The notes beneath the pieces were generated by a model. That model searched no databases. It saw only the letters and a program-made list of their open reading frames with translations, and had not been told where the DNA came from. A DNA stretch of 64,000 nucleotides. It comes from Stutzerimonas stutzeri. Lineage in GTDB: Bacteria; Pseudomonadota; Gammaproteobacteria; Pseudomonadales; Pseudomonadaceae. This document shows positions 4,594 through 10,527 of this stretch, piece by piece (within the stretch, counting starts at the first letter, position 1; each line of letters starts with the position of its first letter). The stretch covers positions 85,140 to 149,139 of the forward strand of contig NZ_JAMOII010000009.1 of assembly GCF_024448985.1 (NCBI RefSeq), read 5' to 3'. Made by a program: the position numbers and the translations under genes.

Positions 4594-5694
4594 ATGCCGC
4601 AGAAATTCCACAACCCGGTCGCGACTTTCTTTGGCGCCGACAGCCTGAAGGAAATTCGCAGCCTTACCGAAAACCAGTACGTCGCCCTTGTCACTTTTCC
4701 CGAAGCACGCTCGCTGGGCCTGATCGATCGTGTGCAGGCGCTGCTCGGTGATCGACTGGCCTACATCGTCGAGGATGTGCAGCCCAACCCCGACGTTGCG
4801 CAGCTGAGCGGTATATACGAGCGCTTCTGGCAACAGGCCAGCCACTGCCAGACGGTGATCGCTCTGGGTGGCGGCAGCGCCATCGACACCGCCAAGGCAC
4901 TGATCGTCGGCACCCAAAGCGGGCGCTTCAACGAACTGCTCGAACTGCTGGCCAGCGGCCAGGCGTTCACCTCAGCCAGCAGCAAAAGCCTGATCGCCAT
5001 CCCCACCACTGCCGGCACCGGCAGCGAGGTGACGCCCTGGGCGACGATCTGGGATTCGGCCAACCTGAAAAAATACTCCCTGCATCTGGAATGCACCTGG
5101 CCCCGGGCCGCGATCATCGACCCGCAACTGATGCTGACCGTTCCCAGGGGCGTCACCGTGTCCACGGGTCTGGATGCGCTCTCGCATGCGATGGAATCCA
5201 TCTGGAACGTGAACGCCAACTCGGTATCGGACACCTTCGCCACATCCGCAATACGTGATGTGCTCGACTGCCTGCCTGCACTCTGCAAGGACCTGGGCAA
5301 CCTCGAACTGCGCTCGCGCATGGCCCTGGCCGCGATGAAAGCCGGGCTGGCGTTCTCCAACACCAAGACCGCCCTCGCCCACTCGATTTCCTATGAGATG
5401 ACCCTGCGCCACGGCCTGCCCCATGGCATCGCCTGCTCGTTCACCCTGCCAATGGTTCTGGGGCTGGCCTGGGGCCGCGACCCTGGACGCGACCGCGTGC
5501 TGAAGCAGGTGTTCGGTGCCGATCTCGACACCGCTCAGCAACGGCTTCGCCAGTTCCTGCACAGCCTGGACGTGAAGACCGAATTTGCCGATTACGGCGT
5601 GGCAGCCGACGAAGCGCAGCAGATGATCGACTACGCCCTGCTCGGCGCCCGCGGCAAGAACTTCATCGGCGCGCCATCAAGCCCCGTGCACTGA
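4594..5694 (+). CDS. Iron-containing alcohol dehydrogenase of a phosphonate cassette
   Basis: A 366-aa group III (iron-dependent) alcohol dehydrogenase. GGGSAIDTAKA (from about residue 92) is the NAD-binding loop, PTTAGTGSEVT follows, and DALSHAMES plus the His residues near HSISYEMTLRHGLPHG supply metal ligands. An AGGAG box precedes the ATG. It heads a same-strand series with an organophosphate-type MFS carrier, a LysR regulator and phnX. From that context it probably interconverts phosphonoacetaldehyde and 2-hydroxyethylphosphonate or a related alcohol; this is inference. I recall such dehydrogenases next to phnX in other pseudomonads. Confidence 0.85.
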   Translation: MPQKFHNPVATFFGADSLKEIRSLTENQYVALVTFPEARSLGLIDRVQALLGDRLAYIVEDVQPNPDVAQLSGIYERFWQQASHCQTVIALGGGSAIDTAKALIVGTQSGRFNELLELLASGQAFTSASSKSLIAIPTTAGTGSEVTPWATIWDSANLKKYSLHLECTWPRAAIIDPQLMLTVPRGVTVSTGLDALSHAMESIWNVNANSVSDTFATSAIRDVLDCLPALCKDLGNLELRSRMALAAMKAGLAFSNTKTALAHSISYEMTLRHGLPHGIACSFTLPMVLGLAWGRDPGRDRVLKQVFGADLDTAQQRLRQFLHSLDVKTEFADYGVAADEAQQMIDYALLGARGKNFIGAPSSPVH

Positions 5695-5787
5695 TCCACC
5701 CGATCAACCTCCTCGTTATCCGCCACACCTCAAGAGTGAGCCGGCGCGGCGTCAGCGCGTCGGTCTATAACAAGAAGGATAAACACG

Positions 5788-7077
5788 ATGACAATCGCAG
5801 AAGCGTTACCTACTAGCACCACCACGAGGTCATTCCGCCGGATGCAATGGCGAATGCTCTTCGCTGCCATGTTCTGCTACCTGTTCTTCTATACCGGCCG
5901 TCAGACGTTCGGCTTCGCCATCCCCGGCATGCAGGAGGAGTTCGAGCTATCCAAACAAACGCTCGGCTGGGTGTCGACAGGGATGCTATGGGCGTACGCC
6001 ATCGGCCAGGCGATCAACGGCAACCTCGGCGACAAGTACGGCGGACGACGCATGATGAGCGCCGGCGCCATCCTTTCCTGCGGCGCCAACTGGGTCGTCA
6101 GCTTCGCCTCGGGCCTGACCAGTCTGTTCGTGCCATGGGCACTGAACGGCTATTTCCAGGCGCTCGGTTGGGCGCCCGGAAGCCGGCTCCTGTCGAACTG
6201 GTGGGCTGTGAGCGAACGCGGCAAGGTCTACGGCTTCTACGTATTTGCTGCCGGTTGCGCGTCGATCCTTTCCTACATCACCTCGCTGGTAGTCATTGAT
6301 GTCCTGCACCTGGATTGGCGCTGGATCTTCCGTCTGCCCGTGCTGTTGATGCTCGCCGGCGGCATCCGCTTCTACCTCATCGCCCGCGAAAAGCCCGAAG
6401 ACATGGGCTACGAGCCGGTGGATACAGGCGTTGCAAACGAAGAGGACAAGGTTCACGAGAACAGCGACGGCAAGCAGGAAAGCTCCCGTGAGCGTTACAT
6501 GGCGGTTCTGAGAAACCCCAAGGTTGCGATCGCCGCGATAGCGCTCGGATTCCAGAACGCGGCCCGCTACGGCCTGATCATCTGGGTGCCGGTGCACTTC
6601 ATCGGCAGCGACTGGAAAAGCGGCGATTCATGGCTCAACCCGACCTGGATCACTGTCGCACTGCCGGTGGGCATGGCGGTCGGTGCACTCAGCAACGGCT
6701 GGATCTCGGACAAACTGTTCGGCTCCAAACGCTACCTGGCCATCATGCTGTACATGGTCCTGGGTGCGCTGACCAGCTTGTGGATGTGGAGCCTGCCCGG
6801 CCATAGCGTCATCAGCCTAGCGGCATTGTTCCTCTGCGGCTTCTTCGTCTACGGCCCGGCGTCATCGTTCTGGGCGCTCTGCCCCGACCTGGTCGGCGCG
6901 AAACGCGCGGGCACCGCCACCGGCATCATGAACTTCTCGTCCTATCTGTTCGCCGGGCTGGCCGAGCCGCTGATCGGGCATATTCTGGACCTGAGCGGCA
7001 ACACTTCGCCCATCTTCCTCGTCGTCACCACAGCATGCCTGCTGAGTGCGACCGTCGCCTATTTCGTCAAACGCTGA
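5788..7077 (+). CDS. MFS carrier, organophosphate:phosphate antiporter (GlpT/OPA) type
   Basis: A 429-aa, twelve-helix inner-membrane carrier. The N-terminal FYTGRQTFGFAIPG, the GNLGDKYGGRR loop between helices 2 and 3 and the NGYFQALGWAPGSRLLSNWW segment are typical of the OPA branch (GlpT, UhpT, PgtP). A hydrophilic loop (about residues 210-240) separates the halves. A good RBS (AAGAAGGAT) precedes the ATG. Between the iron-ADH and phnX it most likely imports an organophosphonate, though the true substrate is not shown. Confidence 0.85.
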   Translation: MTIAEALPTSTTTRSFRRMQWRMLFAAMFCYLFFYTGRQTFGFAIPGMQEEFELSKQTLGWVSTGMLWAYAIGQAINGNLGDKYGGRRMMSAGAILSCGANWVVSFASGLTSLFVPWALNGYFQALGWAPGSRLLSNWWAVSERGKVYGFYVFAAGCASILSYITSLVVIDVLHLDWRWIFRLPVLLMLAGGIRFYLIAREKPEDMGYEPVDTGVANEEDKVHENSDGKQESSRERYMAVLRNPKVAIAAIALGFQNAARYGLIIWVPVHFIGSDWKSGDSWLNPTWITVALPVGMAVGALSNGWISDKLFGSKRYLAIMLYMVLGALTSLWMWSLPGHSVISLAALFLCGFFVYGPASSFWALCPDLVGAKRAGTATGIMNFSSYLFAGLAEPLIGHILDLSGNTSPIFLVVTTACLLSATVAYFVKR

Positions 7078-8864: not shown

Positions 8865-9006
8865 GCTTGCTGATGCGCTCACGCTATTTTCACGTGGTTT
8901 GACGCTCGATCGACCTTGGCGTCATTCCATCACGGCACACGGCCCACGCTTAGAACAACGCGCCGGCCGTCTGCCCCGATCCATTTCGACAAGAGAGATC
9001 GCCGTC

Positions 9007-10527
9007 ATGATTTATGCAAAACCCGGAACGCCTGGCGCACAACTATCCCTCGAAGCGCGCTATGGCAATTACATCGGTGGTGAATTCGCCGCCCCGATCA
9101 ATGGTGAATATTTCACCAACATAAGCCCTGTCGACGGCTCGGTCATCGGCGAATTCCCCCGCTCCGACGCCGCCGACATCGAAAAGGCCCTGGATGCGGC
9201 GCATGCCGCCGCCGATGCCTGGGGCAAGACCTCAGTGCAGGCCCGCTCGCTAATCCTGCTAAAGATCGCCGACCGCATCGAAGCCAACCTGGAGAAACTC
9301 GCCGTCGCCGAAACCTGGGACAACGGCAAGGCGGTGCGCGAGACGCTGAACGCGGACATCCCGCTGGCCGCCGATCACTTCCGTTATTTCGCCGGCTGCA
9401 TCCGCGCCCAGGAAGGCACCAGCGCGGAGATCGACGAGCACACCGCCGCCTACCACTTTCACGAGCCATTGGGCGTAGTCGGGCAGATCATTCCGTGGAA
9501 TTTCCCGATCCTGATGGCCTGTTGGAAACTCGCTCCAGCCCTCGCCGCCGGCAACTGCGTGGTGCTCAAGCCCGCCGAGCAGACCCCGCTGGGGATCAGC
9601 GTATTGGTCGAACTGATCGGTGATCTGCTGCCGCCGGGCGTGCTCAACATCGTTCAGGGCTTCGGCAGAGAGGCCGGCGAGGCACTGGCCAGCAACAAAC
9701 GCATCGCCAAGATCGCCTTTACCGGCTCCACCCCGGTGGGCTCGCACATCATGAAGCTGGCCGCCGAGAACATCATCCCGAGCACCGTGGAGCTGGGCGG
9801 CAAGAGCCCGAACATCTACTTCGAGGACATCATGCAGGCCGAACCGGCCTTTATCGAGAAGGCCGCCGAGGGCCTGGTGCTGGGCTTCTTCAACCAGGGC
9901 GAGGTCTGTACCTGTCCGTCGCGAGCGCTAGTGCAGGAATCGATCTACGCGCCGTTCATGGACGCGGTGATGAAAAAGGTCGCGCAGATCAAGCGTGGCG
10001 ACCCACTGGACACCGACACCATGGTCGGCGCCCAGGCCAGCCAGCAGCAGTTCGACAAAATCGTCGGCTACCTGGACATCGCCCGCCAGGAAGGCGCCGA
10101 AGTGCTGACCGGCGGCGGTGTGGAGAAACTCGAAGGCTCACTGGCGACCGGTTATTACATCCAGCCGACGCTGCTCAAGGGCCACAACAAGATGCGCGTC
10201 TTCCAGGAAGAAATCTTCGGCCCGGTGATCGGCGTGACTACCTTCAAGGACGAGGCCGAGGCGCTGGCCATTGCCAACGACACCGAGTTCGGCCTGGGCG
10301 CTGGCGTCTGGACCCGCGACATCAACCGCGCCTACCGCATGGGTCGCGGGATCAAGGCCGGACGGGTGTGGACCAACTGCTATCACCTGTACCCGGCGCA
10401 TGCCGCGTTCGGTGGCTACAAGAAGTCCGGTGTCGGTCGCGAAACCCACAAGATGATCCTCGACCACTACCAGCAGACCAAGAACCTGCTGATCAGTTAC
10501 GACATCAACCCGCTGGGCTTCTTCTGA
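9007..10527 (+). CDS. exaC: NAD-dependent acetaldehyde dehydrogenase, ExaC type
   Basis: A 506-aa aldehyde dehydrogenase, exactly the length of Pseudomonas ExaC. It has [17 protein letters not shown] (catalytic Glu) and [11 protein letters not shown], where by alignment Cys301 is the nucleophile. It converts acetaldehyde to acetate. The ATG at 9007 is chosen because upstream codons (from 8809) overlap phnX and lack similarity. It stands between two acetaldehyde producers, PhnX and EutBC. A strong GC hairpin ends the unit and a separate promoter candidate precedes the permease. Confidence 0.92.

Follow-up and report, generated by a model that had tools for sequence, protein, structure and literature searches.

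Four consecutive genes of Stutzerimonas stutzeri, psrA, a gene for an OPA-type MFS carrier, a lysR gene and phnX, probably form a horizontally acquired and, it seems, substrate-inducible operon for the use of 2-hydroxyethylphosphonate (HEP). They lie just upstream of exaC in a 64,000-nucleotide stretch of contig NZ_JAMOII010000009.1, hereafter called the window. In the proposed route, the carrier would import HEP, and PsrA, a metal- and NAD(P)-dependent alcohol dehydrogenase (ADH), would oxidize it to phosphonoacetaldehyde (PAA). PhnX would split PAA into acetaldehyde and phosphate, drawing the unfavourable oxidation forward, and ExaC, a resident enzyme of the ethanolamine operon that is possibly shared by both pathways, would convert acetaldehyde to acetate. 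Activation of the operon would fall to the LysR protein, acting at a two-part site ahead of psrA. We infer the identity of the substrate, the direction of the reaction, its cofactor, the transport and the regulation from sequence comparisons.

The sequence-only reading of this DNA had described a series encoding an iron-dependent ADH (Fe-ADH), an OPA-type MFS carrier, a LysR regulator, PhnX and ExaC. All five open frames were found where it had placed them, on one strand, and their families were tested (Table 1). The ADH does belong to the Fe-ADH family but is not anonymous within it, as it scores above the cut-off, over its full length, with TIGR03405, the NCBI model named PsrA (we did not find the meaning of this name in the literature searched). 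With NF050025, the model of the sulfoacetaldehyde reductase SarD, it scores well under the cut-off (128 versus 700 bits). PhnX also clears its cut-off, and its residues D15 and K56 align with Asp12 and Lys53 of the Bacillus cereus enzyme (positions fixed through PDB variants that differ there), which we take to be the catalytic Asp and Lys. The gaps of 93, 15 and 20 bp from psrA to phnX make these genes look like one unit, whereas the 142 bp before exaC leave room for a promoter of its own. A longer exaC frame, from a TTG at 8809, was rejected as an artefact of the listing of open reading frames; the start is the ATG at 9007.

Profile searches covered the whole 4.23-Mb assembly (99.98% complete), in which the window lies on contig 9. 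The absence of PhnW, the transaminase of the 2-aminoethylphosphonate (AEP) pathway, had been proposed from the local gene content together with a check of the rest of the genome; this check gave no protein over the cut-off genome-wide (best score 72 versus 400.8 bits with TIGR02326). A hidden PhnW was thus ruled out, the only matches being sub-cut-off aminotransferases of a kind also found in 14 of 14 control genomes. Entry of AEP through an HpnW/PbfD-type flavin oxidase was rejected, since no TIGR03364 protein of the genome exceeded the cut-off (best 46.6 versus 285.1 bits). The same holds for a role in phosphonate biosynthesis, no phosphoenolpyruvate mutase (PepM) being over its cut-off in the genome (best 119.6 versus 319.6 bits), and for a carbon-phosphorus (C-P) lyase route, as the genome has no PhnJ. 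It contains a single TIGR03405 gene and a single TIGR01422 gene over cut-off. By these profile matches, PsrA is the sole recognized candidate source of PAA among the families searched genome-wide (PhnW, HpnW, PepM and PhnJ).

The surroundings of psrA were compared across 36 loci: the window, eight plasmid loci (L014-L021, i.e. eight of the nine matches at ≥44.8% identity, a second Vibrio pelagius record, H7, being left out), 26 contig loci (L022-L046 and L048; at least 26 exist) and a locus of genome G224 (L148). PAA-consuming genes were near psrA in 25 of them, namely phnX in 12 (window, L016, L021, L022, L023, L028-L031, L040, L045, L148) and phnY and/or phnA in 13 (L014, L015, L017, L018, L024-L026, L035, L037, L041-L044; PhnY only in L042). 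In the telling case of L014, which has psrA and the same carrier (68-70% identity), the genes that come next are phnA and phnY rather than phnX. As PAA is the one substrate common to PhnX and PhnY/PhnA, it is most simply the product of PsrA, or its substrate if the reaction is reversed. PhnW was present in none of the 36 loci, scanned over 10 kb (7 kb for plasmids, about 9 kb for L148) or to the contig end; the sole match was a 27%-identity aminotransferase with 74 bits in L048. The same scan matched 13 of 13 known PhnW loci.

The transporters beside psrA vary (PhnCDE, OPA, peptide-type ABC). In three loci (L017, L021, L039) the neighbours of psrA include a peptide-type ABC transporter and a hydrolase of PHP/CehA type (so annotated in L017), which could mean that phosphonate esters are used. 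On a Vibrio pelagius plasmid (L019), psrA stands with PhnD-C-E, and the stretch examined contains no phnX, phnY or phnA; the PAA consumer may lie elsewhere. A metagenome-assembled genome (MAG) of the Pelagibacteraceae (L044) encodes PhnD-C-E-E, PhnA, an aldehyde dehydrogenase (best match ExaC, 32%) and PsrA side by side, which may amount to a HEP route within SAR11.

Among 369 genomes of the class, PhnX was found in ten and PsrA in two, both times beside phnX. Five of the eight PhnX genomes devoid of PsrA have PhnW, always within 5 kb of phnX, and three have none. PhnW therefore neighbours phnX in 5/8 PsrA-less genomes versus 0/12 psrA+phnX loci (Fisher p = 0.0036, for groups that were sampled differently and are uncorrected for kinship).

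The active site of PsrA was examined by comparison with its nearest solved structure, 6JKO, the sulfoacetaldehyde reductase TauF. This entry came first by sequence (28% identity) and by fold, its E-value in the fold search tying with that of methanol dehydrogenase 8ZWD; the AlphaFold2 model of PsrA has a pLDDT of 93.1. According to the part of PMC6616044 available to us, TauF reduces sulfoacetaldehyde and also oxidizes isethionate, shows no detected activity on ethanol, ethylene glycol or ethanolamine, and almost loses isethionate oxidation when T257 or F265 is mutated to Ala. Isethionate is the sulfonate analogue of HEP. The metal ligands D192, Q196, H261 and H275 of TauF align with D194, H198, H263 and H277 of PsrA, which are present in 26 of 26 aligned PsrA proteins, and its pocket residues F252, T257 and F265 align with F254, T259 and Y267. 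At position 258, the 26 aligned PsrA have Lys or Arg, TauF has Lys and FucO has Gly.

The triple K/R/H258, T/S259 and F/Y/W267 was found in 26/26 PsrA versus 4/57 other Fe-ADHs (among the 57, the genome's own L004 is misaligned). Two of the four (L047, L101) are encoded directly after PepM and Ppd (phosphonopyruvate decarboxylase), both over cut-off, a third (L049) adjoins an OPA carrier, and the neighbour of the last (L051) has no family. In a midpoint-rooted tree of 81 Fe-ADHs, 25 PsrA fall in one clade (100/99), and a larger clade (100/98) adds these four together with L062, a protein without the signature, each of the five on a long branch. From this pattern, ADHs placed for the making of HEP from PAA (PepM-linked) and ADHs placed for the supply of PAA to PhnX seem to have pocket and ancestry in common. 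In another genome of the genus (G396), the sub-cut-off TIGR03405 match (366 bits) is a PepM-linked ADH with R258, T259 and Y267, encoded in a PepM-Ppd-FeADH operon (L187, 9132-12672). The product of this operon is likely HEP, the compound that the sister species carrying the window likely consumes.

Thirteen genomes of the genus, the window's own included, were searched; 12 contain eutB, the exception being 71% complete, and PsrA exceeded the cut-off in the window genome only. The eut regions of all 11 eutB-bearing relatives (L180-L186, L188-L191) contained no psrA, OPA carrier gene or phnX. In four of them (L180, L182, L183, L188) exaC comes directly after mpl, and the homology of the window to these four ends at 4315-4328 and restarts at 9046-9058. 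In four others (L181, L184-L186) the mpl-exaC slot is filled by an Fe-ADH gene, of YiaY type in L181, the sole one scanned, which suggests repeated gain or loss of genes in this gap. The stretches of L189-L191 are without mpl, and two of the three start at a contig end. The absence of psrA-OPA-lysR-phnX from 11 relatives points to an acquisition of about 4.7 kb or, less simply, to a loss in all relatives. At the edges of the segment there are weak repeats only, and the window is without tRNA. The same order of the four genes is found again in Pseudomonas sp. 14P_8.1_Bac3 (L022; PsrA 75%, PhnX 83% identity) and in Acinetobacter sp. ANC 3813 (L023; 69% and 77%), with no exaC or eut gene within the 10-kb flanks of either cassette.

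The sequence-only reading had counted exaC in the series. As a member of the cassette it was rejected, because same-genus synteny retains it without psrA and phnX: by this comparison, exaC heads the resident ethanolamine operon of the genus (exaC-eat-eutBC beside mpl), outside the acquired segment. What stands is that it is adjacent and could still dispose of the acetaldehyde formed by PhnX. A phnW cluster of Pseudomonas fluorescens PS833 (L141) also has exaC after phnX, so that a sharing of ExaC makes sense though the gene is not cassette-borne. Another locus of PS833 (L048, 9779-10489) holds a psrA cut off after ~118 residues, beyond which the sequence is unrelated; this looks like the relic of a lost cassette.

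Residues R38 and R260 of the carrier align with two arginines of GlpT that we take to bind phosphate, and they are invariant in 11 carriers. The carrier is 51-77% identical to carriers encoded beside psrA, beside phnA alone (Caballeronia, L135) and beside an M20 hydrolase (L134), but only 25-26% identical to the phnW-linked OPA carriers of pseudomonads (L139-L141; the AEP permease AepP of BIRD-1 itself is outside the comparison). Both its distinctness from the phnW-linked carriers and its occurrence beside psrA or phnA elsewhere back the proposed route. AepP is described as GlpT-related in the part of PMC8316502 available. In Caballeronia pSBC2-4 (L135, 5672-8236), phnA is followed by the carrier relative (51-52%), with a divergent LysR, probably for phosphonoacetate uptake and cleavage.

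The lysR gene is conserved within the unit in L022 and L023. In all three cassettes psrA is preceded, at about 105 bp, by a palindrome, the putative operator, which is perfect in the window and L023 and has one mismatch in L022; each also has a second half-site, with exactly 30 bp from ATCGG to ATCGAT. This motif, which was derived after viewing the three sequences, occurs in the window in one perfect and four one-mismatch copies, i.e. 5 versus 0.67 expected. Across 34 psrA upstream regions it was clear in these three only, the others being at or near background, which makes it a feature of this subgroup. No convincing Pho box was found upstream of psrA, the best matching 8/14 positions in the window and L022 and 10/14 in L023. 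In the portion of PMC9311074 available, AepR mediates substrate induction of phnWX. Together with this precedent, these findings suggest that the psrA operon is controlled by its substrate; control by phosphorus starvation is also possible.

Several observations weigh against the HEP route. Eleven of the 36 psrA loci have no PAA-consuming gene (L019, L020, L027, L032-L034, L036, L038, L039, L046, L048); three of these are on short or cut contigs (L032, L039, L046), psrA is broken in L048, and no new PAA-consuming enzyme was recognized among eight proteins scanned from four of the 11 (L020, L027, L033, L034). PhnY/PhnA lie ~7 kb off psrA in L024 and on the opposite strand in L041 and L043. The carrier is under the cut-off of every curated model shown, its assignment being at family level only, and the LysR protein is under that of the AEP-LysR model TIGR03339 (245 versus 341 bits). 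Plasmid PsrA L020 has His258, the equivalent of Lys/Arg258 is not among the residues mutated in TauF in the part of PMC6616044 available, and F254 is replaced by Ile in the PepM-linked L101 and L187, which puts it outside the shared pattern. The same part of that paper gives kcat/KM values of 4.6e4 M-1 s-1 for reduction versus 2.2e2 M-1 s-1 for oxidation by TauF, a ~200-fold difference with each measured at its own optimal pH, so that PsrA alone may look like a reductase.

PhnW is, moreover, encoded elsewhere in 16 of 27 PsrA genomes, and PsrA is thus not simply a substitute for PhnW. The surroundings of PhnW were read in eight of the 16 (G369, G372-G374, G378, G387, G388, G394), the other eight having PhnW on another contig. 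Among the eight read, it was on another contig in six and on the same contig in G373 (~14.5 kb) and G387 (~359 kb). In six of the eight, the PsrA and PhnW modules each have their own PhnX or PhnY/PhnA; in Variovorax boronicumulans (G378), PsrA pairs with PhnX and PhnW with PhnY/PhnA. In G374 the consumer genes are found only with the PhnW module, and in G394 psrA is broken. The duplication of the downstream genes argues that PsrA is a separate entrance rather than a helper of the AEP pathway.

We considered that PsrA might act in reverse, as a PAA reductase that yields HEP, in line with what Lockwood et al. propose for the phpC genes of AEP operons; its purpose would be to make or repurpose phosphonates or to keep PAA from reaching toxic levels. 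The TauF kinetics would fit such a role, two Vibrio records name PsrA members 'phosphonoacetaldehyde reductase', and PMC9381506, in the part available, proposes that PhnW and PhpC convert AEP to HEP where pepM is absent. Yet this is unlikely here, as neither PhnW nor HpnW is over cut-off to supply PAA, no PhnW stands beside psrA in the loci compared, and PepM over cut-off is lacking here and present in only 2/28 PsrA genomes. Furthermore, psrA shares its unit with a carrier and with a hydrolase that would destroy the reductase's substrate. With no recognized source of PAA in the cell, reduction has little to act on, and PAA hydrolysis by PhnX, which is effectively irreversible, would pull the oxidation.

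That PhnX yields acetaldehyde, and that a YiaY-type Fe-ADH precedes exaC in four same-genus genomes (family checked in L181, the four being alike in the pocket), would also suit an ordinary EutG- or YiaY-like ADH acting on acetaldehyde or ethanol downstream of PhnX. We consider this very improbable, because the 13 psrA loci with PhnY/PhnA encode a route without acetaldehyde, because the ADHs of the slot have S258, L259 and H267 versus K258, T259 and Y267 in PsrA, to which they are 27-28% identical, and because TauF, with its PsrA-like pocket, is inactive on ethanol in the text available. The same logic could also apply to another substrate, either an ester of HEP or a substituted compound related to it, for example 1,2-dihydroxyethylphosphonate, and the varied transporters and the PHP/CehA-type hydrolase beside some psrA genes look as if esters were also used. 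This is improbable: the window cassette is without such a hydrolase, and the direct oxidation product taken by both PhnX and PhnY would be PAA, which points to HEP itself. Judged by the missing PhnW, the neighbouring PAA genes and the TauF-like pocket, PsrA most likely oxidizes HEP to PAA for PhnX, and the order of import, oxidation and cleavage put forward by the sequence-only reading is the best interpretation after testing.

Table 1. Features of the window. Curated cut-offs are 423.7 bits (TIGR03405), 220 bits (TIGR01422), 900 bits (NF050026) and 341 bits (TIGR03339).
Feature	Position	Strand	Basis
psrA, metal-dependent alcohol dehydrogenase, predicted 2-hydroxyethylphosphonate dehydrogenase	4594..5694	+	TIGR03405 559.4 bits, full length
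OPA-type MFS carrier, predicted phosphonate importer	5788..7077	+	best TIGR00881 216 bits
LysR-type regulator, predicted substrate-responsive operon activator	7093..8016	+	TIGR03339 'phn_lysR' 245 bits
phnX, phosphonoacetaldehyde hydrolase	8037..8864	+	TIGR01422 325 bits; D15, K56 conserved
exaC, acetaldehyde dehydrogenase, resident head of ethanolamine operon	9007..10527	+	NF050026 942 bits
eat, ethanolamine permease (resident operon, context)	10719..12167	+	TIGR00908 656 bits, over cut-off
eutB (context)	12178..13569	+	NF011649, over cut-off
eutC (context)	13674..14468	+	NF003971, over cut-off
Putative LysR operator TATCG-N7-CGATA upstream of psrA	4486..4502	+	sole perfect match in window
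Second half-site ATCGAT	4517..4522	+	30-bp spacing shared with L022, L023
Segment absent between mpl and exaC of same-genus genomes, acquired cassette	4330..9045 (edges approximate)		DNA homology

The PsrA family in NCBIfam is already known, as are phosphonatase clusters that have flavin enzymes instead of PhnW (PMC11203657 and PMC10590968, each in part). Beyond these, it is moderately likely that PsrA marks a modular HEP-catabolic pathway across Proteobacteria, the Pelagibacteraceae MAG included. PsrA would be an entrance to PAA beside the transaminases, the PbfA lyase and the flavin enzymes, would have a common ancestry with the biosynthetic PAA reductase while working in the opposite direction, and would be coupled to PhnX or to PhnY-PhnA. 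The pathway would be free of ethylene and may be controlled by substrate rather than by phosphorus starvation. If true, a dehydrogenase and phosphonatase dedicated to HEP would open a second fate for it, with other products and another control than the C-P lyase. In PMC9381506, as far as available, 53% of phpC genomes are without pepM, and phpC-like genes outside producers are read as possible makers of HEP from AEP; some of them may instead be HEP eaters. For PbfF, the available part of PMC12366243 weighs a role as HEP dehydrogenase as less likely and reports a racemase, so that the slot of HEP dehydrogenase looks open. No assay of PsrA or of a catabolic HEP dehydrogenase was found among the matches listed in the literature searched, which leaves out most subscription journals.

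The system resembles the PhnW-PhnX pathway for AEP in having the same PhnX, a lysR gene and, as in some pseudomonads (L139-L141), an OPA carrier nearby; it differs in the genome-wide absence of PhnW, in the ADH found instead and in its distantly related carrier. With the HpnW- or PbfD-fed phosphonatase clusters it shares a PhnX whose PAA seems to come from some enzyme different from PhnW, but no TIGR03364 protein is over cut-off here, and the presence of an ADH implies that the substrate is an alcohol instead of an amine. PsrA has the fold and pocket residues of TauF, which acts on a sulfonate analogue, though at low identity, and the role proposed for TauF in the available text is reductive, in the assimilation of taurine nitrogen. 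The PhpC-type PAA reductases, compared here through PepM-linked ADHs (L047, L101, L187) and not through Streptomyces PhpC, have the same K/R258-T259-Y267, and L047 and L101 group with PsrA; the window genome, in contrast, has a PAA hydrolase and a carrier where those have PepM. Finally, the use of HEP by C-P lyase (PMC5649143, in part) starts from the same predicted substrate, but it releases ethylene, whereas the PhnJ-less genome described here is predicted to form acetaldehyde.

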